From: Bacillota bacterium
Lineage (GTDB): Bacteria > Bacillota > Sulfobacillia > JAJZYS01 > JAJZLH01
Length of the DNA: 64,000 nucleotides
Assembly (NCBI GenBank): GCA_021850485.1
Contig: JAJZLY010000030.1
Span: forward strand, 10,649 to 74,648
Reading direction: 5' to 3'
Positions 6,020-41,515 of the stretch are shown in pieces; the first letter of the stretch is position 1, and each line of letters begins with the position of its first letter. The position numbers and the translations under genes were made by a program. Below the pieces are notes generated by a model, which saw only the letters and a program-made list of their open reading frames with translations, had not been told where the DNA came from and ran no database searches.

Positions 6020-6634
6020 CTAAGGACTGGCGGTGACCTGACGCACACTGGGCATGACCTGCAAGGTTCCGTTCACCACCAGGGTGAACGATTGACTGGT
6101 TTGCCCGTCGGTGACCGTGATCTGCCAACTCCCGTCTGACGGGGCGTTGGCCGTCCAGGGCACGTACAGGGTACCCTGCTGCTGCGAACCAGAGACAGAA
6201 AATGGCTGAGCGTTGAGCGACGCATAATTGACATCCTGACCCTCGATCGGGACCGTGAGCGCAAAGGCAGCTGGTACTTCGAAATGCACGGGCCGACTGG
6301 CCCCAAGCACAACCACAGAAACCGCCTGACCCCGGGCGGCCTGTCTGGCGCCTCCTTGGATGGCCCAGGCGGTGACGCGGCGGACCCGGGCGATGACCGT
6401 GACGGTACGCATGGTAAAGGCCCAGCGACCGCGATCGTCCTCCACCCATAGCGAAATCGTGTATGTGCCTGGAGCCGAGAAACTCCCCACCCTGCCAAAC
6501 CAGATTTGCTGCACCAAGCTGTGGCCCGGTGCCGGGTCGTAGGAATTGTCGACTACTGAAATGGGCGTGCCCACCAACACGACAGACGGAACTCCAAAGG
6601 AAGCCACGGGGGCCGGATAATTAATCGGACCCAT
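6020..6634 (-). CDS. Ig/PKD-like beta-sandwich protein, last gene of the T4SS/Tad cluster
   Basis: About 204 residues with no signal peptide that I can see at the chosen start. The segment GTYTISLWVEDDRGRWAF resembles a PKD/Ig-like strand pattern, and SDGSWQITVTDGQTSQSF near the end suggests a second beta-sandwich. The ATG at 6634 has GGAGGTG four bases before it, whereas the frame is open slightly further up. It overlaps the preceding pilin-like gene by 14 bases, so it belongs to the same operon. A surface-exposed pilus or tip component is an inference from position only. Confidence 0.65.
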   Translation of the reverse strand: MGPINYPAPVASFGVPSVVLVGTPISVVDNSYDPAPGHSLVQQIWFGRVGSFSAPGTYTISLWVEDDRGRWAFTMRTVTVIARVRRVTAWAIQGGARQAARGQAVSVVVLGASRPVHFEVPAAFALTVPIEGQDVNYASLNAQPFSVSGSQQQGTLYVPWTANAPSDGSWQITVTDGQTSQSFTLVVNGTLQVMPSVRQVTASP

Positions 6635-7079
6635 GGGGCACCTCCACATCTGCGTGCACCACTTGCGAAAAGGTCAGACCGAGGAAGACGGTGGAAAACT
6701 GTAGACTTCCACCGACCCCTGGCCATGAGAAGCGATACCCGGTGACCGGGTCGGTACTGCCTGCTGAATAGAGGCTGAGCAACGGCGAGCCGATCGGGAT
6801 GAGTGCTGCTGGCAGGTCCGCCAGCAGCACTGATGAGAAGACTTGCGTGGCTCGCTTGCTGTCGAGCTGAGGCCCTGCCGGCCCGACGGGCACCTGCACC
6901 TGGCTGCCCGCAGCGTGGAGGGCAAAGACTAGCGCAGAGTATGCCTGGAACCGGGCCCACACGGTACGTTGCAGTGCCAAGGCGCCACCCAGCGAGACGA
7001 TGAGGAGCAACTCCAGGAAGACGGCCAGAATGTAGATGACATGTCCATGCTCATGGCGCCGCTGGGGCGACTGCTTCAC
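6621..7079 (-). CDS. TadE/TadG-like pseudopilin
   Basis: 152 residues: a short basic N-terminus, then HGHVIYILAVFLELLLIVSL, a single membrane segment placed as in class III prepilins, followed by a periplasm-type variable domain. The GTG start at 7079 has GGAGGTAG about 7 bases upstream. It overlaps both neighbours. The glycine before the hydrophobic helix could be the prepilin-peptidase site, by analogy with the two genes before it in the operon. Confidence 0.7.
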   Translation of the reverse strand: MKQSPQRRHEHGHVIYILAVFLELLLIVSLGGALALQRTVWARFQAYSALVFALHAAGSQVQVPVGPAGPQLDSKRATQVFSSVLLADLPAALIPIGSPLLSLYSAGSTDPVTGYRFSWPGVGGSLQFSTVFLGLTFSQVVHADVEVPHGSD

Positions 7080-7491
7080 TGTCGACTACCTCCTGTTCGC
7101 CGAATTGAACGGTAGTTCCGGCCAGTCCGACCAGGGTGAAGGGGAACCCCTGTAGCGGCACATTGACCCGGACCGTGATCGTCATGGGCTGCCCCCAGGG
7201 AACGGACGGAGCGGGCCCGGAGACCCATGGCTGCACGGTCAGCCCGGCGTCGGCCAGCGACTGCGAAACGCTGTGTGATACAAACGGCGTCACGCCTCCG
7301 GCTAACGCAGCGGTCTCAGATCCGACCTGAGCCGCGAATGCCACGTCCGTGGACAGCTCGGCGAGATGCAAGGCGGCCATGCCGCCGAACAAGGTGAGCA
7401 ACAGCAGTGGTAGCACTAGGGCTGTGGCGATGTAGATGTCCAGACTGCCACGCTCCCTGAAGGCCCTACTGTCCAGTGGTGATCGGTACAT
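7051..7491 (-). CDS. TadE-like minor pilin
   Basis: 146 residues with the N-terminus FRERGSLDIYIATALVLP and a hydrophobic helix, matching the TadE pattern in which a basic-Gly site precedes a membrane helix with an 'ALVLP' core. The usual Glu at mature position 5 is not present. The rest is a small extracytoplasmic domain. Overlaps of 26 and 29 bases with the neighbours indicate one transcript. Confidence 0.75.
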   Translation of the reverse strand: MYRSPLDSRAFRERGSLDIYIATALVLPLLLLTLFGGMAALHLAELSTDVAFAAQVGSETAALAGGVTPFVSHSVSQSLADAGLTVQPWVSGPAPSVPWGQPMTITVRVNVPLQGFPFTLVGLAGTTVQFGEQEVVDSEAVAPAAP

Positions 7492-7681
7492 TGAGCCAGG
7501 CCGTGACGATGTCGCGGATATGAGCGCCCACGGCGGTGAAGGCGAACAAAATAACGCCTGTCAGGCTGATCGCGGCCAGAGCCATGATTCCCTGGGCAAT
7601 GTACGTGGACAGATCTCCACGCTGCCCGCACAACAGGCGAATCGCAGATTGCCAGTAGCTGCGCAGTGATAACAAGGACAT
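7466..7681 (-). CDS. Flp-type major pilin candidate
   Basis: A 71-residue protein shaped like a class III prepilin: about 23 leader residues ending RG, then DLSTYIAQGIMALAAISL and a single helix, then a short tail. The site RG|DLSTYIA parallels RG|SLDIYIA in the next gene. Flp pilins normally carry Glu5 and a Tyr next to it; here Tyr is kept but Glu is not. It begins one base after the tadC stop. No prepilin peptidase (TadV) gene is seen in the window. Confidence 0.7.
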   Translation of the reverse strand: MSLLSLRSYWQSAIRLLCGQRGDLSTYIAQGIMALAAISLTGVILFAFTAVGAHIRDIVTAWLNVPITTGQ

Positions 7682-7682
7682 C

Positions 7683-8339
7683 TCAGATGAGCCCCTTTCC
7701 GGGCAAGAAGCCGAATTGTTGGATCAGGGTGACAAGATGCGGATAGCCAAACAAGATGGCCGCATTGATCATGAAGAGCCCGGCCAGGAGGGTTAAGAGA
7801 TAGGGAACGAATGTAGCCTGGCGCCGGATCAGAGCCGTGCGGGCTTGCCGGGCGATCGACTCCTGGGCCGCCATGGTTTGACGGAGCGGGACACCCAGTG
7901 TTTCACCAGCGCGAATCGCGGAAATTAGGTTTCGGCCAGCTGGGAAGGCGAGATCCCTGGAGAGTCGAGCCAAGGCGGAAGAGAGATCAGAAGAGGCGAG
8001 TAGTTCCTCCCGAAAAGAGCGCAGAGGAAGACTGAGCGGTCCCATGACCTCGATCGGTAAATGCAGCATGGTGGCCACTACGCTCAGACCATCTTCAGCT
8101 GAGATTCGCAACAGCAACAACAGGTCGGGAATCCACGCCGCCCGGGCCTGCAGCTCTCGCCTCCAGATCAGGCGTTGGATGGCGGGACCGATCTGATACG
8201 CAGCGAGCAGAACAAAGGGGGTCAGCGGCGGCCACACCCAGCTCAGGCTGATGCCGACCAAACTAGCCGGGTGGGTGGGAGGACGTTTCCAGGCGACAGC
8301 GGCGAAAATTAGAGATATGCCCGCGAGGTATGTCACCAC
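7683..8339 (-). CDS. tadC: TadC-like inner membrane platform protein
   Basis: 218 residues of the type II secretion F family as used by Tad pili. There is an N-terminal membrane pair, a cytoplasmic helical domain (PDLLLLLRISAEDGLSV, with RAGETLGVPLRQTMAAQ later) and a C-terminal membrane helix. It starts with GTG overlapping the tadB stop by 7 bases and is followed immediately by the pilin gene, the typical Tad order. Confidence 0.85.
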   Translation of the reverse strand: MVTYLAGISLIFAAVAWKRPPTHPASLVGISLSWVWPPLTPFVLLAAYQIGPAIQRLIWRRELQARAAWIPDLLLLLRISAEDGLSVVATMLHLPIEVMGPLSLPLRSFREELLASSDLSSALARLSRDLAFPAGRNLISAIRAGETLGVPLRQTMAAQESIARQARTALIRRQATFVPYLLTLLAGLFMINAAILFGYPHLVTLIQQFGFLPGKGLI

Positions 8340-8989
8340 AGCAGCGACTCAGGCTGAAACCACGGAGTTGCAAGCATGCTGGCCGTGGTCAGGAGCACCC
8401 AGGCGCTGAGCCAGCGTCCAACGCCGACCTGAAAGAGGCTCGTGCTGGCGGGAGAGGCCACCACCGACGCGATGAGGATCACCTCGACACCAAAGAAGAG
8501 TCCGGTGGCGACCCCCAGAGCGGTCTGCTCGCTACGCCACTGGTTGGCCATGGTGACGCGTTGCTCGACCTCTTGCAGCAAAATCAGAAGGGGGCGCTGG
8601 TGGCTTAGGCCAGTGCGCACCGCATCGGCCGTGAACAACTGGCGCAACGAGGTCTGAAGCCAACGCGGTGCGCTGGGACTGTGTAGGAGAAATGTGACCT
8701 GATCTCCTCCGGCCGCCAGGATCTCGTCGGGTTGCAGGGTGAGCGTACTCATCTCCAGCATTGATTCCAGGCACCGTTCAGTTGCAGACAGGGTCTGACG
8801 CAGGCCGCGATTTCGCTGCCACTTGGTCCACGCCTGAGGGATGATGGCGGCAAGCAGTATGGCTGGAATCATGGTGACGCCGCCGCCCCAGAGCCATCCC
8901 GCCAGGGCGCCTACAGGTAGCAGAACAAGTCCACCGGACACCTGCCCGAAGACGACCGCCGCCAGGATAGCTACCAACCAGGCATTCAT
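8333..8989 (-). CDS. tadB: TadB-like inner membrane platform protein
   Basis: 218 residues with membrane segments at both ends and a cytoplasmic helical centre; GLSHQRPLLILLQEVEQRV is the region that resembles the T2SF domain. It is smaller than many TadB proteins and more divergent than the TadC that follows. The ATG overlaps the tadA stop by 4 bases. Confidence 0.75.
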   Translation of the reverse strand: MNAWLVAILAAVVFGQVSGGLVLLPVGALAGWLWGGGVTMIPAILLAAIIPQAWTKWQRNRGLRQTLSATERCLESMLEMSTLTLQPDEILAAGGDQVTFLLHSPSAPRWLQTSLRQLFTADAVRTGLSHQRPLLILLQEVEQRVTMANQWRSEQTALGVATGLFFGVEVILIASVVASPASTSLFQVGVGRWLSAWVLLTTASMLATPWFQPESLLW

Positions 8990-9987
8990 GAGCGCACCTG
9001 GCGACTGGACGACGGTGCCCAGGTGAAGTCACCGGTCTGATCCTCGATGGCGGCCACTACCGCCCCATGTGCTGACCGGGCCATCACGACCACCAAATCG
9101 ATTTCGCTGCGAAATGACTCTTCCAGAAAGCCGGTGGATGCCGACGGCATTGCCGTTTGCGCGAGCCATGCCAGGCGCTGGTGGACACGGTCTGCGGAGA
9201 GGGCGTGGATGGTGGCAAACGACCCCGAGTGACCGGAGGTCAGTGCCAGCAGCCACTCAAAGGCCTCACCGCCGCGCAGTTCACCGATGCCTAGCCGGTC
9301 CGGGCGCAGATGCAAGGCATGGCGGACCGCATCGCGCGTCGAGACGGCGAACCGGCCCTCACGGTTGGCCGGCCTCGTCTCCAGTTCCACCACGTGATGG
9401 TGGCAGCCGGCCAAGAACAACTCACGCACCTCCTCCACGACCACGATGCGGTCGTCTGCGGGCATCTGGGACACCATCCAGCGGGTCAGCGTCGTCTTGC
9501 CGGCGCCGGTGGGCCCGGCCACGATGAATGACCTGTGACTCTGGGAGATGGCGACCAGGAGATGTTCCACTTCGGCGTCAAAGGTACCGACCGCTCGAAG
9601 CGCATCCGTCGACCAGCGATCGGGACGGTGGACGCGCACCGAGATGGACGGCTCGAGCGAGTACGGGGGAATGGTCAGCCCAACCCGACAGTGTCCCAGG
9701 GTGATCGATTGGAAAGGTTGGGCCAGCGACAGGTCCCGCCCTCCGGCCGTGGCGAGGTGCAGGGCGAGGTCGAGGGCGACCACCACAGACCCAAGCGCGC
9801 CAGCGGCTAGCAGGTGCCCGTCCCGGCAGATGGTAACGGTGGTGCCGCAGACGAAGATGTCGGAGACCTGAGGATCTGCCAAAAAGGGGCGAAGGGGTCC
9901 CCACGGCGGTTCGCGCGGGTCGTCAGAGAGGTGTGGTGCGTCCCGGTTAAAGATCACCGATCGGTCGGGATTGCTCAACGGCTGCAA
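8986..9987 (-). CDS. tadA: TadA/CpaF-type secretion ATPase (VirB11 superfamily)
   Basis: Hexameric motor ATPase of Tad pili and a member of the VirB11 superfamily, so it could serve either a pilus or a secretion channel. Walker A is at about residues 155-163 (GPTGAGKTT), followed by an acidic Asp box (IVVVEEVRELFL), a Walker B-like region (RPDRLGIGELRGGEAFEWL) and the His box (GHSGSFATIHA). The TTG start at 9987 has GAGGTGA 6 bases upstream. 333 residues is short for CpaF because the N-terminal extension is missing. It overlaps tadZ by 41 bases. Confidence 0.92.
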   Translation of the reverse strand: MQPLSNPDRSVIFNRDAPHLSDDPREPPWGPLRPFLADPQVSDIFVCGTTVTICRDGHLLAAGALGSVVVALDLALHLATAGGRDLSLAQPFQSITLGHCRVGLTIPPYSLEPSISVRVHRPDRWSTDALRAVGTFDAEVEHLLVAISQSHRSFIVAGPTGAGKTTLTRWMVSQMPADDRIVVVEEVRELFLAGCHHHVVELETRPANREGRFAVSTRDAVRHALHLRPDRLGIGELRGGEAFEWLLALTSGHSGSFATIHALSADRVHQRLAWLAQTAMPSASTGFLEESFRSEIDLVVVMARSAHGAVVAAIEDQTGDFTWAPSSSRQVRS

Positions 9988-10873
9988 CAGATGTCACCTC
10001 GTGCATGCGAAGCCTATGGAAAAGGTCGCGAAAGGGGCTCAGGGCCGGTGTCGACAGCGGCTGGCCGGAGACCAGAAGATCAACCGGGGGAAAGCGCAGC
10101 CGCGGAATGGAAATGGCGCCCGCCTGCGGCGGGTGGCAGCGCCCCAAGATGTGGTTGGCAACCCGAAAGTCACCCCCGACCGCAGTCCGTCGCCGGAGAG
10201 CTGGGGCGCAGACCACGCTTACCGTTGCACCGTCGCCAGACTCGGCGGCTCCGTCCACAATGGTCACCGCTGGCCAGGCCGGCCGCGGGCTCTCCGCATC
10301 CACGATGAATCGCCCCAGTTGGGGCCCAAGGACCGGATGCCCGAGCAGGTAGGTCTGAAGCAATCGGTCTGTCGATCGATCGAGCAGATATGTGGCGGCT
10401 CCGCGCGACTGACTGTAGAGGAAGAGCCCGAGTGCGACCGTGCTCTGGCCGAGACTGCCGGAAGTTCGACGGCAGGAGATCAGTGTCGGAGGCGGCAGGG
10501 CAGCCGCTAGGAATTGCAGCAAGGTGTCACCGGAAAAAGGCCCGCTGAGCACATGCCGGATGCCCACCTGCCGAAGGCTGATGGTGACGGCGCGATCGAA
10601 GATGGAATCAGGGAGAATGTAGATGATCCGCTGCGGAGGGATCGCCAGCGTGCGCAGGAAGTCGGCCGGATGGGCGGGCATGTCCGGGAGGCTGTGACTC
10701 AGGACCAGCACCTCCGGCGCGTGCGCAGCGACAGCCGCAGCCAGCAGCGAAGCGGAGCGGACCTCGGCGAGGACCCGGATCGGCTCATGCTGCTCTAAGA
10801 ATCGGCAGACCGCGTCTTGATCCAACCGACTATGGGCGGCAACGACAATGCCGGGCCGGACTAGGGTATCCAT
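9947..10873 (-). CDS. Degenerate TadZ/CpaE-like protein
   Basis: 308 residues. The first 120 or so look like a receiver-type fold (VLVLSHSLPDMP) without a clear phospho-acceptor set, as in CpaE/TadZ. The second half has the layout of the MinD/ParA-like domain, but the deviant Walker A is reduced to SGSLGQSTVALGL with no lysine, so nucleotide binding is doubtful. Identification rests mainly on position between cpaB and tadA and on the two-domain layout. Start codon overlaps the cpaB stop. Confidence 0.6.
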   Translation of the reverse strand: MDTLVRPGIVVAAHSRLDQDAVCRFLEQHEPIRVLAEVRSASLLAAAVAAHAPEVLVLSHSLPDMPAHPADFLRTLAIPPQRIIYILPDSIFDRAVTISLRQVGIRHVLSGPFSGDTLLQFLAAALPPPTLISCRRTSGSLGQSTVALGLFLYSQSRGAATYLLDRSTDRLLQTYLLGHPVLGPQLGRFIVDAESPRPAWPAVTIVDGAAESGDGATVSVVCAPALRRRTAVGGDFRVANHILGRCHPPQAGAISIPRLRFPPVDLLVSGQPLSTPALSPFRDLFHRLRMHEVTSVAAVEQSRPIGDL

Positions 10874-11436
10874 GGCAGGACAACGACCTTCCCGGAACTG
10901 ACGGCGAACTCCACCAGTTCCGCTTGTGCCTGGGACAAGCTGACCGCCACGAAGCTCCCCTGGGGTGTTGTTGAGGTGCTGCTGACCATCGCCCTGGGAA
11001 CCAGCACTTGGGGTGGAGTACCGCTGAGCAAGAGCATCACGGCAGCCTTGGGGCCAAGGTCTGGAGGCAATGTAGTAACGGGGATGCTAACTTCCAGCTG
11101 TGAGAGGGGTGGAGCTGCGGGGGCCCTGCCATGCGTCAGAGCACCCGCACAGACGATCGCATTGGCCGGAAGTGCGTTGCGCAGGTGCCAGCCGACTGGC
11201 GACCGACGAACGGCGCCGGGAGGAAGGGCCGAGCCGACCACTGCCGACAGAGCGCGCAGGTCGGAACTCACCAGGGTGGCACCTGCTGGCAGGGCGCGGG
11301 CGGTCACCCACACCGTGGTCGTCGGTGTGCGGGCCGGAAGCAGGGCCAAGACCAAAGCCACCGAGGAGAGCCCCAGTGGGACCATCGACCACAGCTTGTG
11401 CCCGGACTGGAGGGCGGGAAGACGAAAAAATCCCAT
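10861..11436 (-). CDS. cpaB: CpaB/RcpC-like SAF-domain pilus assembly protein
   Basis: 191 residues: an N-terminal membrane helix (PLGLSSVALVLALLPA) and then a SAF domain (VWVTARALPAGATLVSSDLR), as in Flp pilus assembly protein CpaB. In diderms CpaB works near the secretin; here, in an apparent monoderm, it may organise the cell-wall passage. GGGAGG lies 7 bases before the ATG. It lies between the VirB4-like and TadZ-like genes. Confidence 0.85.
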   Translation of the reverse strand: MGFFRLPALQSGHKLWSMVPLGLSSVALVLALLPARTPTTTVWVTARALPAGATLVSSDLRALSAVVGSALPPGAVRRSPVGWHLRNALPANAIVCAGALTHGRAPAAPPLSQLEVSIPVTTLPPDLGPKAAVMLLLSGTPPQVLVPRAMVSSTSTTPQGSFVAVSLSQAQAELVEFAVSSGKVVVLPWIP

Positions 11437-11448
11437 GGTGCCGCCTCC

Positions 11449-13326
11449 CTAGCGAAGCGAGATGGGGGTGGTATCAGTAATCGATGCCTCCAAAGCATTG
11501 AGGCTAAGTCTGACGGGACGGACGCCGTCATCAATCAACAGGGCCTCGCCAGGCTGGGCCACAGACAGCCAGTGGGTGGGCCGATGCGACAGCTGGTATC
11601 TCTCGCAGATCAATCGCAGGTCATCTGCACTCTGCCGAAAGAGCACCAGCATCCCGGCATTGGACAGCATCAGCCGCCCATCGTCTGCCAGCAGGAAGTC
11701 CCCGACGTTTTGCGTGATTCCCGTGAAGCTGACCCCGGCCTTGCGTGAGCGCTTGAGGAACGACAGCAGACCCTGCCGGACTTGGGGATGGTGCAAGAAG
11801 AGGTGCACCTCATCGAGAGTCACGGACAAGGGGTACCCCTGTTGTCGGTGGACGCGCAGCCAGTCTCCGACCAACTCGAGGAGTAAGGGCACTGCAGCAG
11901 CGACCGTCTCAGCGTCTGCCTGAGCCAGATTGAATGAGATGATGCGGTGATCCGGGAAGCGGCGCAGAGGGCCAGAAAAACCGCGCAACGGGCCGTCAGC
12001 GTACGGCCAGACAGCAGGGTACAGGGGATCACTACTGGGAATGCGCCGCAGCAGGTCTCGAAAGGTTGGCGCGGTCGTCTGCCGGTAGCAATCGGTGAGT
12101 AGCAGCCTGAGCCGGAGCACTTCTGCCGATCCCAGAGAGCCGGCCAGCAGTGGCGGGATCCGCAGAAGTTTGCCCTCCAGGTCGCCTGGTTGCGGGGCCG
12201 CCAGCGGATTGAGATGGCCGCTATTGGTGCCGATTGGGATGGACATCCCCTGCAGATGGCGGACCAGCAACTCGTACTCACCCTCGGGATCGAAGACGAT
12301 GGCCCGCGCTTGCGTTGACTCCAGCCGACGAAGTAGCTCCACTTTGCTAAACGTTGACTTGCCACTCCCGGGAAGGCCGAGAACGAATGCGGACGGATTG
12401 GCCTTGCGGCGGTCGTGACTGACCAGAGCGCGGTGATCCGGATCGATCCCGATGAACAGGTCGCGGCGGTCGCTTATCGGTGGCGCCGACCACTCGTATA
12501 GACCCAGGTGAATTAGGGTCTGGGCGTCAAGCATGCGAACCAAAGGAGGCATGGCTGAGAAGTGATCGCCGAACAAGGTCGACAGCTGTGCCTGTTGGAA
12601 GGGAACCGGCGAGAACGTGAATCCAAGTCCCTGCGCCAGTTGCTGAAACGAACGGGGCGCCGGGTCTGCAGGTGATCCGGAAACAGCGGCCACAAGACCA
12701 ACCCTGAACAGTCGATTCATCCGACCAGAGACCTGCCCTAGTAGCGCCTCCGCGTCCTGTGCGGACTGCTGGAAGGCGGGATCCTTTGCGCTGTGTGGGC
12801 GAAGCACCCGCAGCCGGTGGCGGAGCATGCGGGTCGCCTCGTGGGCCGGCAGGGGCCGACAGTCAACGAGCAGATCCAGACCGGTCGGGAAGGTGAAGAG
12901 CGGAGCCAGAAGGTCCGGAGAGACCTGAGCCGGCCACCTGACCGCCATCAGCATGGTGATGTCTCCTCTGGCCCCGGAGAGATGGCGAAGGTGCTCGGTG
13001 GCTGGGGAGCCACCCGGGGCCGCGAGCAGAGGGTCGGGGCGGTCAAGGTGCAGATGGCGGGCGATGGGGTGGACTGACGAGCGGCCGGGGGTGAGCAGGT
13101 GGAGTTCCATGTGCAGCAGATCGATGGGAGGTGAGAGCCTGGAGCGGGTGAGATGGTCGAGGTACGAATGGGTGCCGGAGGCGACCTCGCTCAGGGGTCG
13201 AGACCTGTACCAGAATTTAATGTCGTGAGGGACACTGAGGAGAAAGTTCAAATCCTGAGCCTGTAGCGAGGTTAGGTCGTCATCTGGCAGCCACCGCACC
13301 GGGATAGGGTGGATCAGTTCGACCAC
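11449..13326 (-). CDS. virB4: VirB4-like conjugation/secretion ATPase
   Basis: 625 residues. Walker A at about 314-322 (GLPGSGKST), then FDPEGEYELL, and Walker B near 501 (LDEVHLFLH) followed by KRSRKAGVSFTGITQNVGDF, the layout of VirB4/TraC/ConE-type T4SS ATPases. The N-terminal half is the less conserved VirB4 N-domain. The GTG at 13326 with GAGG upstream is chosen because longer versions would overlap the preceding gene fully. It is embedded between a PrgI-like and a SAF-domain gene, so it is part of the hybrid cluster. Confidence 0.92.
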   Translation of the reverse strand: MVELIHPIPVRWLPDDDLTSLQAQDLNFLLSVPHDIKFWYRSRPLSEVASGTHSYLDHLTRSRLSPPIDLLHMELHLLTPGRSSVHPIARHLHLDRPDPLLAAPGGSPATEHLRHLSGARGDITMLMAVRWPAQVSPDLLAPLFTFPTGLDLLVDCRPLPAHEATRMLRHRLRVLRPHSAKDPAFQQSAQDAEALLGQVSGRMNRLFRVGLVAAVSGSPADPAPRSFQQLAQGLGFTFSPVPFQQAQLSTLFGDHFSAMPPLVRMLDAQTLIHLGLYEWSAPPISDRRDLFIGIDPDHRALVSHDRRKANPSAFVLGLPGSGKSTFSKVELLRRLESTQARAIVFDPEGEYELLVRHLQGMSIPIGTNSGHLNPLAAPQPGDLEGKLLRIPPLLAGSLGSAEVLRLRLLLTDCYRQTTAPTFRDLLRRIPSSDPLYPAVWPYADGPLRGFSGPLRRFPDHRIISFNLAQADAETVAAAVPLLLELVGDWLRVHRQQGYPLSVTLDEVHLFLHHPQVRQGLLSFLKRSRKAGVSFTGITQNVGDFLLADDGRLMLSNAGMLVLFRQSADDLRLICERYQLSHRPTHWLSVAQPGEALLIDDGVRPVRLSLNALEASITDTTPISLR

Positions 13327-13334
13327 GACAGACC

Positions 13335-13649
13335 TCAGGTGCGGCCAAGGCGGGTGGCGACCTCTGTGCCTTGGCGTCGTCGCCGGACGCCTCGGCGCAG
13401 ACTCCATAGGACGGCCCAGGTGAGCAAAAGCCGTACGGAAATCCCGTCGACCGCGCCGAAACCGACCACGAGGAACGTCGCCCACAGGCAGATCACCAGC
13501 GCGCCAAAGGCGGCCGAAGAAGAGGTCATCAGCTGGAACGACACGATGACTAAGACCACGCCCACCAGCGCAGTCCAAGCATCGAGTCCCCACAGCACAG
13601 GCTCAGCCGTTTGCAGCAAATCCTGAGGAACATGGTGGTGGGAGCGCAT
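13335..13649 (-). CDS. PrgI/VirB3-like small membrane protein
   Basis: 104 residues with two or three hydrophobic segments (LDAWTALVGVVLVIVSF and two further ones) and a basic C-terminus. Size, topology and position immediately before virB4 fit the PrgI/VirB3 slot of Gram-positive T4SS. There is no recognisable sequence signature, so the name is inferred mainly from context. Confidence 0.65.
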   Translation of the reverse strand: MRSHHHVPQDLLQTAEPVLWGLDAWTALVGVVLVIVSFQLMTSSSAAFGALVICLWATFLVVGFGAVDGISVRLLLTWAVLWSLRRGVRRRRQGTEVATRLGRT

Positions 13650-13673
13650 ATGGACGGCACCTCTGCTTTCGTC

Positions 13674-14426
13674 TTAGAAGTTCAGCCATTGAGCCGCCAG
13701 CATCCAGGCTGGAGCGTCGCGTCTGGCTCCAGTAACCATCGCTCGCAATAGAGCGGGGGCACGGATCATGAGGTAGAGGGCGGCGAGTCCAACCAGTGCG
13801 TTGGCTGGGCCTAGACCCTCTAGGCCAGACAGACCCCGGGACAAAACCAACACGAAGGCCTGCACCGTCTGAACCAACGTGATCACCACGAGCTCTTGCA
13901 GATACCTGCCTCCGATCGGCCGAGATACTGGCCAAGCCAGGGCCATCAGGCCCAGCGGCGATATGGTTGCCAGAAACATCAACTCGATCGCTCTGATCAG
14001 ATAGACGACTGTCAGAATCAGGAGCAGGACAAGGTAGGGCAGCCAGAAGACGAGGTCGGCGAGCACCCGGGTTGGCAGCGATACGGGAGTGAGCTGAAGA
14101 GCGACCTGAGAAGCCAGAGAGGAGATGAGAGCGTTGTTCAGGCGGATGAGAAAGATGCAAATGCGCATGGAGAGCAATGCCAAGATCAGGGTCGAACCCA
14201 GGGAGATGACCAACCGCAGCCAGTCGACTCTTACACCGGAGATCATCTGAGAGGCAGTCAGCAGGACAAGCAAGAGGGCACAAACACCGACCAGCGATAG
14301 GGAGAAGTGCCACAGGGAAGCGACGATGGGAAGCAACCAGACGTCTGGTGTGATTGCGACCAATGGGGCGAGAACCCCAAATACGCTCTGCAGCACCGGT
14401 TGAACGGCTCCGGCGATGATGTTCAA
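13674..14426 (-). CDS. VirB6/TrbL-like polytopic membrane protein
   Basis: 250 residues with at least six hydrophobic segments and charged loops. The TTG at 14426 overlaps the previous stop as TTGA, with GGGGG about 8 bases upstream; the same frame is open further but would run through the previous gene. It is the expected size and topology for a T4SS channel subunit of the VirB6/TrbL type, and lies two genes before virB4. Confidence 0.7.
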   Translation of the reverse strand: MNIIAGAVQPVLQSVFGVLAPLVAITPDVWLLPIVASLWHFSLSLVGVCALLLVLLTASQMISGVRVDWLRLVISLGSTLILALLSMRICIFLIRLNNALISSLASQVALQLTPVSLPTRVLADLVFWLPYLVLLLILTVVYLIRAIELMFLATISPLGLMALAWPVSRPIGGRYLQELVVITLVQTVQAFVLVLSRGLSGLEGLGPANALVGLAALYLMIRAPALLRAMVTGARRDAPAWMLAAQWLNF

Positions 14427-14662
14427 AAGGGCGCCCCCTGCCCTGCCCACGAATAGACAAGACGCACCAAGTCCTGGGCGAATACCACCACCACGAGCCC
14501 ACCGACAACGGCGGCCAAGTGCTTCCAGGCGTGACTGCGCTGGCTGGGGTTGTCTCCGCTGGTCCACAGGAGATAGCCACCCCACAGCAAGAACAAGACA
14601 CTGGCTGTGCCCAGCCATGCCTGGACAGAAGAGATGACGTTAAGAAGAAAGTGCTGAACCAT
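14423..14662 (-). CDS. VirB2/TrbC-like two-helix pilin-type protein
   Basis: 79 residues with two hydrophobic helices (AWLGTASVLFLLWGGYLLW and AAVVGGLVVVVFAQDLVRLV) joined by a short polar loop, as in VirB2/TrbC-type small subunits. It is the first gene of the minus-strand cluster; AAAGGAG lies about 9 bases before the ATG. The assignment is by topology and context, not by motif. Confidence 0.65.
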   Translation of the reverse strand: MVQHFLLNVISSVQAWLGTASVLFLLWGGYLLWTSGDNPSQRSHAWKHLAAVVGGLVVVVFAQDLVRLVYSWAGQGAPF

Positions 14663-14905: not shown

Positions 14906-15367
14906 TTAGGTCGAGGCGGCAAGAGCAGCTTGGAGTTCAACCATGTCCAGGGACTGCTGCGGGTTGGCCTGCGCCCGCAGGTAGCGCACGGTCCCTCCTC
15001 GGTCGATAATCGCCGTTGCGCTGGTTTGAAGCGTCCCGGCGAGCACTCTGGGAAGCGCCAGAGCGGCATACAGGCTGCGCGTGGGGTCAGCCAGCAGGGG
15101 GATAGACAAGGACATGGAGGCGACCCGGCGGTCGCATGCGGCCTGAGTAGCCGGTGCTACGGCAATGCCGGCAATGTCTGCCTTTGCCCAGAGAGTGCTC
15201 TGCGCAGCTAACTGCCGCGCGTTTCGTTGGCAGGCAATTCAGGTCACGGCCCGCATCAGGTGGACGGCCGTGAGGCGGTGCTCAGAAAACAGCTGACGCC
15301 AGGTACGATCTGCTGCGACTTGGGAGTCAAGTACAAGGTCCGAGAGTGGCACATCAATAATACTCAT
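14906..15367 (-). CDS. Redoxin (AhpC/TSA-like), probable selenoprotein with in-frame UGA
   Basis: From ATG 15367 the frame is open to TAA at 14906 except for one TGA at 15239-15241 (codon 43). The protein reads AVHLMRAVT-U-IACQRNARQL, so the TGA falls where peroxiredoxin-like proteins have their redox cysteine and leaves a U-x-x-C motif with Cys46. Downstream, LLADPTRSLYAALALPRV and AIIDRGGTVRYLRAQAN continue the AhpC/TSA-like fold to 153 residues. A short hairpin follows the TGA. Selenocysteine insertion explains this better than a nonsense mutation, since both sides keep family features, but the selenocysteine machinery is not in the window. Likely a thiol/selenol peroxidase-like redox enzyme. 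It is divergent from the VOC gene. Confidence 0.75.
15212..15233 (-). promoter_or_regulatory. Candidate bacterial SECIS hairpin
   Basis: On the mRNA, CUGCC at 6-10 bases after the UGA pairs with GGCAG at 23-27, enclosing a second short CG/CG stem and a small loop centred about 17 bases after the UGA. That distance fits bacterial SECIS elements. The stem is short, and an alternative hairpin (GCAG-TTAG-CTGC) lies slightly further on. Confidence 0.4.
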
Positions 15368-16137: not shown

Positions 16138-18039
16138 ATGGCGAAGTTTTACATCACGACCCCGATCTACTATCCCAACGCCCGCCTGCACATCGGGCAT
16201 GCATACACCACGGTGGCAGCCGACGCCCTAGCCCGCTACCATCGCCTATTAGGCGATGAGGTGTTCTTTCTGACCGGGACCGACGAACACGGCCAGAAGA
16301 TCGGCCGCACCGCGCAGGAAGCCGGACTCAGCCCACAGCAGTACGTCGATCAGATTGTGGCCACCATTCGTGAGCTGTGGGGAACCTTGGCCATTTCTTA
16401 CGACGACTTCATCCGGACCAGCGAAGATCGCCATCGCACCGTGGTTCAAGAGGTATTTCGCCAGCTGGTAGCCAGTGGGGACGTGTACAAGGGGACATAC
16501 GAGGGCTGGTATTGCACGCCCGATGAGTCGTTTTGGCCGGAGGGCCGGCTCGTCGACGGGAAGTGTCCCGTCTGTGGCCGGGCCGTCGAGCGGGTTCAGG
16601 AAGAAAGTTACTTTCTCAAACTGGCGCCGTACGCCGAGCGGCTGAAGCGTCATATCCTCGAGCATCCCGGATTCATCCAGCCAGAAAGCCGGCGCAACGA
16701 GATGTTGGCCTTCATCGACCAGGGCCTGGACGATCTGTCGATTTCCCGCACCAGCTTCGATTGGGGTGTGCCGCTACCGGGAGACGAAAAGCACGTGGCC
16801 TATGTCTGGATTGATGCGCTGACCAACTACATCACAGCCGCCGGCTTTGGATCAGATGCCGAACGGTTCGCCCGGCTGTGGCCGGCCGACGTGCACTTAG
16901 TTGGCAAGGAGATCGTCCGTTTTCATGCCATCATCTGGCCGATCATTTTGTTGGCTCTCAAATTGCCGTTACCGAAGACGGTGTTTGGGCACGGCTGGTT
17001 GCTGTTGGACGATGCGAAAATCGGTAAGTCGACCGGAAATGTCATCGACCCCACCACCTTGGTCGAACGTTACGGCCTGGATGCCGTCCGCTACTATCTG
17101 CTGCGCGAGGTGGCCTTTGGATCCGACGGTTCGTACAGCGAGCCTTCGCTGGTGCTGCGCACGAACGTGGATCTGGCCAACGACCTTGGCAACTTACTGT
17201 CGCGGACGACGGCGATGCTGGAGCGCTTTTCCGCTGGCAAGGTGCCGGTGCCTGTCGGCACGAGCAACCTGAGGCCCGTGGCCGAGGCGGCGATTTACGA
17301 GTGTGAACAGGCGCTGGCCAGCCTATCCTTGTCCGATGCACTGGTCGCCTTGTTCCGCCTGGTGAAGGCAGCGAACAAATCGATCGAAGAGGAGGCGCCC
17401 TGGACCCTGCACCGCAATCAGGACCCGCGACTGGCGGCCGTGCTCTACGACCTGGCGGAGAGCCTGCGCATCACGGCCGTGGCGCTGAGGCCATTTCTGA
17501 TCGATGCCCCGGCCAAGATTTATGCTCAGCTGGGTGCCGGTGACATCGGGGCGACCAGTTGGCAGGATGTGGCCTGGGGCGGCCTCAAGCCCGGTGCGAC
17601 AATCCAGCGCGGTGCGCCGCTGTTTCCGCGGATCGAGGCAGAGGAGCCGACGGCTAGCGCACCGCGACCGGCCGTGGCCGCAACGACGTCGGCCAAAGCG
17701 ACTGCCGAGAAGGCAGGCACCATTGAGCTGGCCGACTTCAAGCGCCTTGAGCTTAAGGTGGCGCGGGTCGTTAGCGCCGAGCCAGTGGAGGGTAGCCGTA
17801 AGCTGTTGAAACTGACGTTAGACCTAGGTGCCGAGCAGAGGACGGTAGTGTCCGGCATCGCCGGCCACTACGACGGCCCCGCACTGGTGGGTAAGGATGT
17901 GATCTTGGTGGCGAACCTGGCACCGGCCACCATCTTCGGCATCGAGTCGGGGGGGATGATTTTGGCCGCACGAGACCGCGATCAGTTGCGGCTGCTCACG
18001 GTCGACGGATCCCTGCAGCCGGGATCGTCGGTGTCGTGA
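16138..18039 (+). CDS. metG: Methionyl-tRNA synthetase with C-terminal tRNA-binding domain
   Basis: Class I synthetase, 633 residues. HIGH is at 18-21 and the KMSKS loop is KIGKS at about 294-298. One cysteine pair in the connective domain (GKCPVCGR) with an upstream WYCTPDE gives a partial zinc-knuckle. The C-terminal 110 residues are an EMAP/Trbp111-type OB domain (LKVARVVSAEPVEGSRKLLKL). GAGGAGG lies before the ATG. Control is by the T-box leader just upstream. The stop overlaps tatD. Confidence 0.97.
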   Translation: MAKFYITTPIYYPNARLHIGHAYTTVAADALARYHRLLGDEVFFLTGTDEHGQKIGRTAQEAGLSPQQYVDQIVATIRELWGTLAISYDDFIRTSEDRHRTVVQEVFRQLVASGDVYKGTYEGWYCTPDESFWPEGRLVDGKCPVCGRAVERVQEESYFLKLAPYAERLKRHILEHPGFIQPESRRNEMLAFIDQGLDDLSISRTSFDWGVPLPGDEKHVAYVWIDALTNYITAAGFGSDAERFARLWPADVHLVGKEIVRFHAIIWPIILLALKLPLPKTVFGHGWLLLDDAKIGKSTGNVIDPTTLVERYGLDAVRYYLLREVAFGSDGSYSEPSLVLRTNVDLANDLGNLLSRTTAMLERFSAGKVPVPVGTSNLRPVAEAAIYECEQALASLSLSDALVALFRLVKAANKSIEEEAPWTLHRNQDPRLAAVLYDLAESLRITAVALRPFLIDAPAKIYAQLGAGDIGATSWQDVAWGGLKPGATIQRGAPLFPRIEAEEPTASAPRPAVAATTSAKATAEKAGTIELADFKRLELKVARVVSAEPVEGSRKLLKLTLDLGAEQRTVVSGIAGHYDGPALVGKDVILVANLAPATIFGIESGGMILAARDRDQLRLLTVDGSLQPGSSVS

Positions 18040-37792: not shown

Positions 37793-38782
37793 ATGGCGCT
37801 GACGGTTGGCATCGACATTGGCAAGGCGTTATTGGTCATCATTTTTCTGCAGGCGGCGTTCGGGTATCTGACCCTGATCGAGCGCAAGTTGTTGGGGCGG
37901 TTCCAGTTGCGGCCAGGACCCAACCGGGCCGGACCTTTTGGACTGCTGCAGCCGTTGGCTGACGGAGTGAAGCTCCTGTTTAAGGAGGAAATCATCCCGG
38001 CTGGGGTCGATCGCTTCGTATTTCTGATCGCACCCATGCTGTCGCTACTCGGCGCCCTGATGGCGTTTGCCGTGATCCCCTTCGGTTCCCCGGTGCACAT
38101 TTTCGGTCGCCTGGTCCCATTGCAGATCGCTGGACCAAGCCTGAGTCTGCTCTATGTGTTCGCAGTGGCGTCGTTGGGCGTGTACGGAATCGTTCTCGGC
38201 GGCTGGTCCTCGCAGAATAAGTACGGTCTGCTTGGCGGGTTGCGGTCATCCGCCCAGATCATCTCCTACGAACTGGCCATGGGCCTGTCGGTGATCGGTG
38301 TTCTGCTGGCGGCCGGTTCGGCGGACCTGAATCAGATCGTCAGTGCCCAGACCAGAGAATGGTTCGTCTTTCCGCAGATCGTGGGATTCATCGTCTACTT
38401 TATCTGTGCCATCGCCGAGACCAATCGAGCGCCCTTCGACTTGCCGGAGGCCGAACAGGAACTGGTGGCGGGCTATCACACCGAGTACACGGGCATGAAG
38501 TTCGCCATGTTCTTCATGGCCGAGTACATCAATATGATCACCGTCTCGGCGCTGGCTACCACGCTGTTTTTGGGTGGTTGGCACGGGCCGGCGATCTTAC
38601 CCAGTTACCTGTGGTTTCTGATCAAGGTTGCCATCTTCTTGTTCGTGTTTGTCTGGCTGCGGGCCACCTTGCCTCGCTTGCGCTATGACCGCTTGATGGC
38701 CTTTGGGTGGAAGGTGTTGTTGCCGGTCGCCCTGCTCAACGCCATCGGCACTGCCGCCTGGGTCGCCCTGGTTCACCCCTAA
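37793..38782 (+). CDS. nuoH: NADH-quinone oxidoreductase subunit H
   Basis: 329 residues, eight membrane helices. Motifs: ERKLLGRFQLRPGPNRAGPFGLLQ, and ETNRAPFDLPEAEQELVAGY. Links quinone reduction to proton pumping. Followed 22 bases later by nuoJ with no nuoI between. Confidence 0.97.
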   Translation: MALTVGIDIGKALLVIIFLQAAFGYLTLIERKLLGRFQLRPGPNRAGPFGLLQPLADGVKLLFKEEIIPAGVDRFVFLIAPMLSLLGALMAFAVIPFGSPVHIFGRLVPLQIAGPSLSLLYVFAVASLGVYGIVLGGWSSQNKYGLLGGLRSSAQIISYELAMGLSVIGVLLAAGSADLNQIVSAQTREWFVFPQIVGFIVYFICAIAETNRAPFDLPEAEQELVAGYHTEYTGMKFAMFFMAEYINMITVSALATTLFLGGWHGPAILPSYLWFLIKVAIFLFVFVWLRATLPRLRYDRLMAFGWKVLLPVALLNAIGTAAWVALVHP

Positions 38783-38804
38783 GGTCTGAACGAGGAGGGA
38801 CGAG

Positions 38805-39308
38805 ATGGCCAATCTGATTGCGATCCTCGCTGGCGTGCTATGCCTGTTCATGGGCGTGGTGGTGATCAGCGCGAAGAACCCGATGCACGCGGTGATCGCT
38901 CTGGTCGCCAACTTCGTCGGGCTAGGGGTCCTGTTTTTGCTGCTGCATGCCGAGTTTTTGGCGGTGATCGAGGTCATCGTCTACGCCGGCGCCGTGATGG
39001 TGTTGTTCTTGTTCGTGGTGGCCTTGCTGATGGCCGGCACCCGAGCGCCCCAGGAGAGCCGCGGCAAGAACTTGCCGGGGCAGGTGCCGCTGGCCCTTGC
39101 AGTGACCGGCGTGTTTGCAGCGCTGGTGGTGTTCGCCCTGGCCGTGCGTACCGTGCTGGTTGCGCCGCCGCCGTCGACGACGGATTTCGGCAGCATCACC
39201 AATTTCGGCCGCGCCCTGTTCACCACCTACCTGTTGCCCTTCGAGCTGACAGCTCTCGTGCTGCTGGCGGCCGTAATCGGGGTCGTGTTTTTGGCTCGCG
39301 AACGCTGA
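38805..39308 (+). CDS. nuoJ: NADH-quinone oxidoreductase subunit J
   Basis: 167 residues, five hydrophobic helices. HAEFLAVIEVIVYAGAVMVLFLFVV is the conserved TM3 region with the pi-bulge. AGGAGG upstream of the ATG. Confidence 0.94.
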   Translation: MANLIAILAGVLCLFMGVVVISAKNPMHAVIALVANFVGLGVLFLLLHAEFLAVIEVIVYAGAVMVLFLFVVALLMAGTRAPQESRGKNLPGQVPLALAVTGVFAALVVFALAVRTVLVAPPPSTTDFGSITNFGRALFTTYLLPFELTALVLLAAVIGVVFLARER

Positions 39309-39324
39309 TGAGAGGAGTGAGCGC

Positions 39325-39630
39325 ATGACCCTGCCGACTGTGGATTTCCTGGTGGTCTCTGCGCTGTTGTTCGCCATCGGCGCCGTCGGGGTGATGGTCC
39401 GCAAGAACCCCTTGATCATGTTCATGGCCATCGAGCTGATGTGGAATGCCGTCAACCTCTCGCTCGTTGCCTTCGCTCGTCAGTTTCAGGCGATCAGCGG
39501 GCACATCTTCGTGTTCGTGGTGGTGGTGGCGGCGGCAGCAGAGGTAGCCATCGGCCTGATCATCATCGTGTTGGTGTTCCGCCACCGCGACCAGGCCGAC
39601 GTCGACACGCTGAACGCGATGAAGGGGTAG
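39325..39630 (+). CDS. nuoK: NADH-quinone oxidoreductase subunit K
   Basis: 101 residues, three helices. The conserved acidic residues are in MAIELMWNAVNL and AAAEVAIGLIIIV. Normal size for NuoK. Confidence 0.96.
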   Translation: MTLPTVDFLVVSALLFAIGAVGVMVRKNPLIMFMAIELMWNAVNLSLVAFARQFQAISGHIFVFVVVVAAAAEVAIGLIIIVLVFRHRDQADVDTLNAMKG

Positions 39631-39633
39631 GGT

Positions 39634-41502
39634 ATGCACAGCGTAATCGTCCTCGCACTCGTCTTTCCAGCGCTGGGCGCCTTGGTGGCAGCCTGGTTGG
39701 GACCACGCCTCAGTCACCGTCAGATCACCTGGATCGGTGTTGGTGCGGTCGCCCTATCCTTCTTGGTGGCCGTGGCGGCCTTCGTGCGACTGGCCAGCCT
39801 GCCGCCGGCGCACCGCCTGATCCAGGACACCTTGTTCATCTGGAACCGGGCCGGGGCTACGCCGATCCACTTCAGCTTGCTGGTTGATCCCATTTCGATC
39901 TTGTTCATGCTGGTGATCACCGGGGTAGGTGCGCTGATCCACCTCTACTCCGCCGGGTATATGGATGATGACGAGGGCTTTGGCCGCTTCTTCTGGCAGA
40001 TGAATCTGTTCATCGTCGCCATGTTGCTGCTGGTGATGGCCGGAAACTTCTTCTTCCTGTTGGTCGGTTGGGCCGGAGTGGGCCTTGCCTCTTACTTCCT
40101 GATCGGCTTTTGGTACACTCGGCCGACGGCGGTGGCAGCCGCCAAAAAGGCGTTCGTGGTCAACGTAGTGGGCGACGTCGCCTTGACTCTGGCCATCTTC
40201 TTGTTGTTCGTGAATTTGGGTCATGTAAGCTACCAGACCGTGTTCCGCCAGTTTGCCATCTTGCCGATTGCCACCCGCGATCTGGTGGCGGCGCTGCTCT
40301 TTGTGGCGGCGGCAGCCAAGAGTGCACAGTTCCCGCTGCACATCTGGCTGCCGGACGCGATGGAAGGTCCGACCCCAGTGTCCGCCCTGATCCACGCCGC
40401 CACCATGGTCACGGCCGGTGTCTATTTGGTCGCCCGGGCCTTTCCCATCTTCGGACTGGCGCCCGGTGTGGCCACCACCATCGCCTGGATCGGCGGCTTC
40501 ACGGCGCTGTTTGCCGCCACTATCGCTATCGCCCAAGACGACATCAAGCGGGTGCTTGCCTACTCGACCGTGTCCCAGTTGGGCTACATGTTCATGGCCG
40601 TCGGCACGGCTGCCTATGCCGCCGGAGTCTTCCACTTTTTGACCCACGCCTTCTTCAAGGCGCTGTTGTTCCTGGCGGCCGGATCGGTGATTCACGCCTT
40701 GAGCGGGGAGCAGGACATGTGGAAGATGGGCGGTCTGCGCCGAGCCATCCCGCTCACAGCGGCCACGTTCTTGGTTGGAACCCTGGCCATCTCTGGGATC
40801 CCGCCGTTCGCTGGATTTTTCTCTAAAGATGAGATCTTAGGCGGTCTGCTCTCCGGTGGCCAAGTCGGCCTGTGGGCGATTGGTACCGTGGCCGCTGGAC
40901 TGACCGCCTTTTACATGTTCCGGCTGTACTTTGTGGTGTTTGGCGGCAGTGCCCGCACCAAGAGCCATGCCCACGAGTCGCCGGCGGTGATGACCGTGCC
41001 GTTGGTGGTGTTAGCCGTGCTGTCCACCGTCGGTGGCTTTTTGGTCCTGCCCGGCGGTTACAACCTGATCGAGTCCTGGCTGCTCCCAGCCCTGAGCCGG
41101 TTCGGACCGATCCCGCCGCTACCCCCGCCCACCAACTGGGGGGCGATGGCGGTGGCCCTGGTGGTGGCCCTGGCTGGTGTCGGATCGGCTTGGGCGCTTT
41201 ACGGACGTAAGGCGCCGGCGGTCGAGCCGCTGCACGGGCCGGTCTACCGCTTCCTCAAGGGCAAGTGGTACATCGACGAGTTGGGTGACTGGCTGATCGT
41301 GCGGCCCGTACTGTGGCTGGGCAGTGTCTTGGAGCGGTTCGACCGCAAGGCTCTGGACAGCGGCTTCAACCAGATCGGTCATCTGGTGGCGGGCTGGGGC
41401 GAGTCGCTGCGGCCTACTCAGAGCGGCTACGTGCGGCGCTATGCCCTGAGTTTTGCCGTTGGCGTGATGCTGGTTGTCGCCTTCTTGTCGCTAAGACCCT
41501 AA
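39634..41502 (+). CDS. nuoL: NADH-quinone oxidoreductase subunit L
   Basis: 622 residues, antiporter-like proton-pumping subunit. GWAGVGLASYFLIGFW, FPLHIWLPDAMEGPTPVSAL and DDIKRVLAYSTVSQLGYM are the expected signatures. The C-terminal part includes the lateral helix region typical of NuoL. Confidence 0.97.
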   Translation: MHSVIVLALVFPALGALVAAWLGPRLSHRQITWIGVGAVALSFLVAVAAFVRLASLPPAHRLIQDTLFIWNRAGATPIHFSLLVDPISILFMLVITGVGALIHLYSAGYMDDDEGFGRFFWQMNLFIVAMLLLVMAGNFFFLLVGWAGVGLASYFLIGFWYTRPTAVAAAKKAFVVNVVGDVALTLAIFLLFVNLGHVSYQTVFRQFAILPIATRDLVAALLFVAAAAKSAQFPLHIWLPDAMEGPTPVSALIHAATMVTAGVYLVARAFPIFGLAPGVATTIAWIGGFTALFAATIAIAQDDIKRVLAYSTVSQLGYMFMAVGTAAYAAGVFHFLTHAFFKALLFLAAGSVIHALSGEQDMWKMGGLRRAIPLTAATFLVGTLAISGIPPFAGFFSKDEILGGLLSGGQVGLWAIGTVAAGLTAFYMFRLYFVVFGGSARTKSHAHESPAVMTVPLVVLAVLSTVGGFLVLPGGYNLIESWLLPALSRFGPIPPLPPPTNWGAMAVALVVALAGVGSAWALYGRKAPAVEPLHGPVYRFLKGKWYIDELGDWLIVRPVLWLGSVLERFDRKALDSGFNQIGHLVAGWGESLRPTQSGYVRRYALSFAVGVMLVVAFLSLRP

Positions 41503-41515
41503 GGGAGGTTCGGTC

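Follow-up and report, generated by a model that had tools for sequence, protein, structure and literature searches.

The 64,000-nucleotide (nt) stretch of the Bacillota contig JAJZLY010000030.1 analysed here (the window) contains a cluster of thirteen minus-strand genes, at positions 6020-14662, in which components of a type IV secretion system (T4SS) are joined to those of a Tad pilus and which likely encodes one envelope machine. The machine is derived from conjugation and is probably still conjugation-like, since a VirD4-like ATPase is conserved in the same chromosomes along with a Replic_Relax protein and since plasmid relatives carry T4SS and Tad blocks together; DNA is its probable substrate. 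The source genome, from a group of acid-loving bacteria of Gram-positive type, is a 1.6 Mb assembly that is 97% complete, and families of the same class are referred to below as f1 (its own genus, 3 genomes), f3 (10 genomes) and f10 (7 genomes).

All thirteen open reading frames (ORFs) of the tightly spaced array described in the original prediction are present, with intergenic distances of -29 to +24 nt (overlaps of up to 29 nt and gaps of at most 24 nt). Trimming of start codons places VirB6 at 13674-14450, not up to 14618, and the start of VirB4 near 13326. The genes, followed by the flanking gene, are listed below with the E values of their matches.

14423-14662, minus strand: VirB2-like T4SS pilin, 79 aa; PF18895 (T4SS_pilin) 1.5e-8, PF04956 (TrbC/VirB2) 2.3e-7; syntenic in f1, f3 and f10
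13674-14450, minus strand: VirB6/TrbL-like channel protein, 258 aa; PF19597 (TrbL_4) 8.4e-9; seven transmembrane segments predicted by a transmembrane scan
13335-13649, minus strand: PrgI/VirB3-like membrane protein, 104 aa, two transmembrane segments; PF12666 0.02; profile match to the f3 PrgI at 94% probability
11449-13326, minus strand: VirB4-family ATPase, about 625 aa; NF045971 (CD1110 family) 5.9e-43; PDB 4AG5 (solved VirB4) 1.3e-20
10861-11436, minus strand: CpaB/RcpC-like SAF-domain protein, 191 aa; PF08666 4.1e-4, TIGR03177 0.0018
9947-10873, minus strand: TadZ-like protein, with a degenerate receiver domain and an alpha/beta domain without a full P-loop; AlphaFold model, Foldseek receiver matches, position and a weak profile match
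8986-9987, minus strand: TadA/CpaF-family ATPase, 333 aa; TIGR03819 3.6e-60, CpaF structures 1e-69
8333-8989, minus strand: TadB-like platform protein, 218 aa; position, with weak profile matches to canonical TadB (0.008) and f3 TadB (0.003)
7683-8339, minus strand: TadC platform protein with a T2SSF domain, 218 aa; PF00482 7.7e-4; profile-profile match to canonical TadC at 96.5%
7466-7681, minus strand: Flp-like prepilin, 71 aa; GQRG followed by DLSTYIAQG... and then a hydrophobic segment, a motif kept in 3 genomes
7051-7491, minus strand: TadE-like pseudopilin, 146 aa; RERG followed by SLDIYIATALVLPLL; PF07811 0.059; linked by profile to the TadE encoded at the canonical Tad locus of the same genome
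6621-7079, minus strand: pilin-like protein, 152 aa; HEHG followed by HVIYILAVFLELL, a motif kept in 3 genomes
6020-6649, minus strand: PKD-like surface protein, 209 aa, candidate tip or adhesin; weak PKD match (0.005), conserved in the genus
16138-18039, plus strand: metG, which anchors the locus in both f1 and f3; identified by phmmer synteny and by Pfam on the f3 copy

Domain and profile matches bore out the VirB2-, VirB6-, VirB4-, CpaB-, TadA- and TadC-like assignments made originally, and those of PrgI/VirB3, a degenerate TadZ and TadB, three proteins whose divergence keeps them below Pfam cut-offs, and of the pilin-like proteins are upheld on weaker profile, fold-model, position or motif grounds. 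The motifs of VirB4 are intact (Walker A GLPGSGKS, Walker B LTLDE) and its score of 147 bits against NF045971 lies under the curated cut-off of 325; judged by sequence, the protein is a VirB4 relative and not an equivalog of the CD1110 family. The PrgI-like protein aligns by profile to plasmid PrgI, and the proteins at the syntenic position in two other families match PrgI independently, if weakly (0.018 and 0.0085). An assignment of TadA as VirB11 instead of CpaF was rejected, since VirB11 structures were matched at only 2e-41. The TadZ-like protein gave no Pfam match and no significant sequence match; the receiver and alpha/beta domains of its predicted fold are as expected for TadZ. AlphaFold returned a low-confidence helical model with no structural match for the TadB-like protein, which is so named from its position and weak profile similarity only. 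Each of the three proteins after TadC has a glycine and then a hydrophobic stretch in the style of Flp/TadE prepilins, and this feature is kept in 3 genomes. Comparison with sister genomes shows purifying selection on all thirteen genes, with ratios of nonsynonymous to synonymous substitution (dN/dS) of 0.04-0.27; the VirB2-like gene, for example, is 95% identical to that of a sister genome with a dN/dS of 0.04. No promoter-like site was seen inside the cluster, although the scan is a weak test, and a terminator scan and an Rfam search of the cluster yielded nothing useful.

A VirB4 match was obtained in 15/15 sampled genomes of the order, and all thirteen genes are retained in each of the 3 f1 genomes. 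In f3, the order SSB-VirB2-VirB6-PrgI-VirB4-CpaB-TadZ-like-TadA-TadB-TadC, where SSB denotes a single-stranded DNA-binding protein, is found in 10/10 genomes where contigs allow, with a dapB gene inserted between PrgI and VirB4 in one genus. Thus, the comparison of related genomes proposed as a check on the one-machine idea found the T4SS and Tad genes together and in the same order in two families whose VirB4 proteins are ~32% identical. The cluster adjoins metG in both families on the contigs that reach that far (two in f1, four in f3). Because f1 and f3 share both this order and this neighbor, the T4SS and Tad combination is, by synteny, an ancestral arrangement that was vertically inherited as a unit in the two families. 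They also form one clade in the VirB4 tree (100/98) and in the TadA tree (96/92), and whereas the TadA from the canonical Tad locus in the source genome groups with canonical TadAs (80/75), the cluster TadA falls outside that group. A mobile element, whether an integrative conjugative element or a plasmid, was rejected as an explanation because the cluster occupies a fixed site beside metG in two families and is present in every f1 and f3 genome sampled. The earlier statement that the cluster is not a conjugative element is therefore correct in that it is not mobile, but the argument then offered, from missing VirD4 and relaxase genes, fails.

Outside f1 and f3, VirB4 matches of the order's other two families (f2 and f4) lie in other settings. 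VirB2-VirB6-PrgI-VirB4N-VirB4C-CpaB-TadZ-like is kept in 7/7 genomes of f10, where TadABC directly follows in one genome (L098) and is no more than about 4 kb away in two others; we infer that f10 is the Sulfobacillus family, carrying a looser version of the cluster. Further T4SS and Tad hybrids occur in f35 and f45, and a search of 398 genomes across the phylum returned only close relatives and two single matches beyond an E value of 1e-20. Additional copies were seen in some genomes: G088 has two VirB4 and TadABC hybrids about 12 kb apart (L099/L100), and an f3 genome has an extra, diverged hybrid of this kind (L057, G004:C79). Separately, a second VirB4 at L055 and L056 (G008:C22, G007:C189) groups with that of the conjugative Sulfobacillus thermotolerans plasmid pY0017 and belongs to a separate, ordinary conjugative element.

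Combinations of T4SS and Tad genes recur on plasmids of Gram-positive bacteria. The Embleya linear plasmid NZ_CP108778 carries VirB6-PrgI-VirB4-VirD4-Replic_Relax-NlpC and, ~6 kb further on, CpaB-TadZ-TadA-TadB-TadC-Flp-TadE-TadE-TadG; for its VirB6, VirB4, VirD4, TadA, TadB/C and TadE, homology to the studied proteins was checked, and Replic_Relax, PrgI and SAF were assigned from annotation and a similar motif. On Carboxydocella pCCELLA01 a whole Tad set continues into CpaB-VirB4-M23, and on plasmids of Geobacillus (pGspE55-1), Brevibacillus, Aneurinibacillus and Paenibacillus (pSC2) the Tad and PrgI-VirB4-M23 blocks are a few genes apart. On the C. acnes linear plasmid, tad adjoins VirB4 and TcpC homologues, and the two were treated as separate functions (PMC5696575). 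Other plasmids with a related VirB4 have no Tad genes nearby. The window's cluster would be a chromosomal descendant or cousin of such plasmid combinations; a single origin of all hybrids was considered but not demonstrated, since deep TadA and VirB4 branches disagree or are long. In the Bacillales plasmids (L188, L193, L194, L195), TlpA-like and sigma-70 genes always lie between the Tad and PrgI-VirB4-M23 blocks, a hint of a sigma factor dedicated to the block pair.

The original prediction also held that VirD4, relaxase and prepilin peptidase genes are missing, which is true of the cluster, where none of these was found, and untrue of the genome, where VirD4-like, relaxase-like and prepilin peptidase genes occur at other loci. 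A PF02534 search identified one VirD4-like gene in the source genome, unlinked to the cluster (PF02534 7e-9; CD1115 VirD4 family 1.2e-10), and at least one in 14/15 genomes of the order. A coupling-protein search with TraG-D_C (PF12696) gave no match in the source genome, so a VirD4-like gene of this kind is easily missed. The protein has N-terminal hydrophobic segments, a Walker A motif (GPTGSGKT) and a Walker B motif (VDEFQTF); its f1 and f3 versions share about 41% identity. A Replic_Relax (PF13814) gene overlaps or adjoins the VirD4-like gene in f1, f3 and f10, the pair being located near minC in f3 and f10 and after SbcC- and SbcD-like genes in f1. Among 14 divergent Replic_Relax sequences, a His, Asp, Glu, Asp, Glu, Lys and Tyr are invariant besides the start Met, and these residues resemble a metal-dependent nuclease site, possibly PD-(D/E)XK-like; sequence searches found no relative of the family with known structure. 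Across the 101 genomes of the class, a VirD4-like gene is present in 27 and VirB4 in 34, with all 27 contained within the 34 (13/13 families). In the source genus, SbcC-like, SbcD-like, VirD4-like and Replic_Relax genes form a tight run (L116:6968-12375, G000:C2). Archaeal Ted loci co-occur with Rad50 and HerA too.

On balance, we favor the view that the cluster encodes a domesticated conjugation apparatus which uses a Tad motor and platform to move single-stranded DNA between cells. A reduced Gram-positive T4SS core (VirB2 pilin, VirB3/PrgI, VirB4 ATPase and VirB6 channel) would be built together with the Tad motor and platform and with Flp/TadE-like pilins. The motor and platform (CpaF-type TadA, TadB, TadC, TadZ and CpaB) may extend and retract a filament or stand in for VirB11, such that the Tad part would make cell contact and replace both VirB11 and mating adhesins. 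VirB2, VirB3, VirB4 and VirB6 would form the channel, the Replic_Relax protein may nick or deliver DNA, VirD4 and Replic_Relax would bring the nicked single strand, and VirD4 and VirB4 would pump it via VirB6 and VirB2. In one family (f3) SSB would protect the strand; seven f3 genomes have, besides the housekeeping gene, a second SSB gene 3-6 nt upstream of virB2. The likely direction is donor-type export of chromosomal single-stranded DNA in cell-to-cell exchange. The source genome also has a complete, separate canonical Tad locus (L041, G000:C15:69.7-82 kb), and its prepilin peptidase gene, found only there, several kb upstream of that locus, may also serve the pilins of the hybrid cluster. 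More tentatively, and with odds below even, the system could be a class-wide, vertically inherited gene-exchange organ in which Tad replaces VirB11 and mating adhesins and a PD-(D/E)XK-like Replic_Relax nickase delivers chromosomal DNA, making it a bacterial counterpart of Ced/Ted in lineages that lack ComEC.

Several observations weigh against a conjugation-like machine. The PF13814 proteins are candidate relaxases, not proven ones, and the canonical relaxase family PF03432 is absent in the source genus (other relaxase families were not searched for). No VirB1-type hydrolase or VirB8 domain was found among the thirteen cluster proteins. The f3 clusters lack the Flp/TadE pilin genes, the cluster of the source genus lacks SSB, and most f10 genomes have no TadABC next to their VirB genes. 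Finally, the co-occurrence of VirB4 and VirD4 (hypergeometric 2e-18) is not a corrected p-value since the genomes are related and kinship was not accounted for, and such co-occurrence is expected from ordinary conjugative elements too.

The most serious rival, though a minority possibility, is a machine for DNA import in which the Tad pilus would aggregate cells or draw in DNA, with import through the VirB6/VirB4 core in place of ComEC; this would be a bacterial counterpart of archaeal Ced/Ted with Ups pili. ComEC (PF03772) was found in 0/15 genomes of the order, whereas the same search was positive in 10/14 control genomes, and this absence may simply reflect a lack of competence. Import would also fit the SSB gene beside virB2 in f3, the Ced/Ted precedent of chromosomal VirB2/VirB4/VirB6 sets with ParA-like neighbors and no relaxase (PMC9905601), and the requirement for Tad pili in transformation of Micrococcus luteus (PMC4322843) and in DNA uptake by Liberibacter crescens (PMC8513845), but the VirD4-like protein and the candidate nickase represent functions of a donor. 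Somewhat less probable is a T4SS and Tad hybrid that serves adhesion, aggregation or effector delivery without DNA. Repurposed T4SSs that lack a relaxase are known, for example in Patescibacteria (PMC12102498), adhesion is a common role of Tad pili, and the operon ends in a gene for a PKD-like surface protein; neither the SSB gene in the f3 operon nor the conservation of VirD4 and Replic_Relax alongside the system is readily accommodated by such a role.

It is improbable that the cluster just places a residual conjugation core and a separate Tad pilus in the same operon. Such a pairing would account for the separation of TadABC from the VirB genes in most of f10 and for the mismatch in places between deep TadA and VirB4 branches, yet the same interleaved order persists in two families despite their divergence, CpaB and the TadZ-like gene remain with VirB4 even in f10, and the source genome already has a complete Tad locus elsewhere. 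Least credible of all is that the cluster is what remains of an integrative conjugative element in decay, a reading which the lack of a recognized integrase or canonical relaxase beside the cluster might suggest; it was rejected on the dN/dS values of all 13 genes, and the intact Walker motifs and the fixed metG neighbor in two families also argue against it.

Two features elsewhere in the window were noted. At 14906-15115 on the minus strand, between virB2 and a glyoxalase-like gene, there is a 69-aa redoxin-like ORF that is apparently a fragment, and positions 38001-44000 have a strong negative AT skew (-0.29 to -0.33) across three large plus-strand ORFs that likely encode membrane proteins.

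Both parent kinds, the T4SS and the Tad pilus, were already known, and what appears new is their combination as one chromosomal operon: over deep divergence, a T4SS operon has kept VirB2 as well as an ATPase of the CpaF type (VirB11 superfamily) and the platform that goes with it. A 2025 review states that VirB11 homologues are universally lacking in Gram-positive T4SSs and makes no mention of Tad or CpaF (PMC12857230), and a 2025 study describes Gram-positive T4SS classes, Patescibacteria aside, as being without a VirB2 pilin (PMC12102498). The cluster would be a counter-example to the universal lack of VirB11. A literature search limited to open-licence papers, in which absence is not proof, found no description of a T4SS/Tad hybrid as one machine. 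If the machine moves DNA, it would explain gene exchange in ComEC-less acidophiles, add a case in bacteria of a chromosome that has tamed conjugation machinery, and suggest Tad pili as the contact organ for one class of conjugative plasmids in Gram-positive bacteria. The looser form appears to be present in cultured Sulfobacillus strains, which makes the system directly testable.

Among known systems, Gram-positive T4SSs of the MPF_FATA/CD1110 type (e.g., that of the L. paracasei plasmid NZ_CP007125) share with the studied system a PrgI/VirB3 gene beside a CD1110-family VirB4, a TrbL/VirB6-like channel and a CD1115-type VirD4. The cluster differs from them in having VirB2, a CpaF-type ATPase and TadB, TadC, TadZ and CpaB in the operon, and the studied system differs further in that its VirD4 is encoded away from the cluster, neither a cell-wall hydrolase nor a canonical relaxase was seen and the locus is chromosomally fixed. 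Tad/Flp (type IVc) pilus loci, such as the one in the same genome, contain similarly ordered CpaB, TadZ, TadA, TadB, TadC and TadE-like genes, whereas the cluster is headed by T4SS genes, has short TadB and TadC proteins (218 aa versus ~300) and a degenerate TadZ, and includes no prepilin peptidase. The archaeal Ced/Ted systems (PMC9905601) resemble it in being chromosomal, in combining VirB2, VirB6 and VirB4, and in having a ParA/MinD-like partner and no canonical relaxase, but they have no CpaF/TadBC operon partner, belong to Archaea, and have been shown to import DNA only in the case of Ced. The chromosomal T4SS of Patescibacteria has virB2, virB3 (PrgI), virB4 and virB6, a distant VirD4 and mostly no relaxase; Tad components are unmentioned in the paper that describes it (PMC12102498). 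The plasmids of Embleya, Carboxydocella, Geobacillus, Paenibacillus and C. acnes likewise hold Tad genes in one block with PrgI/VirB4-type T4SS genes; several of these plasmids also carry cell-wall hydrolases and a prepilin peptidase, whereas the version in the window is chromosomal and vertically inherited.

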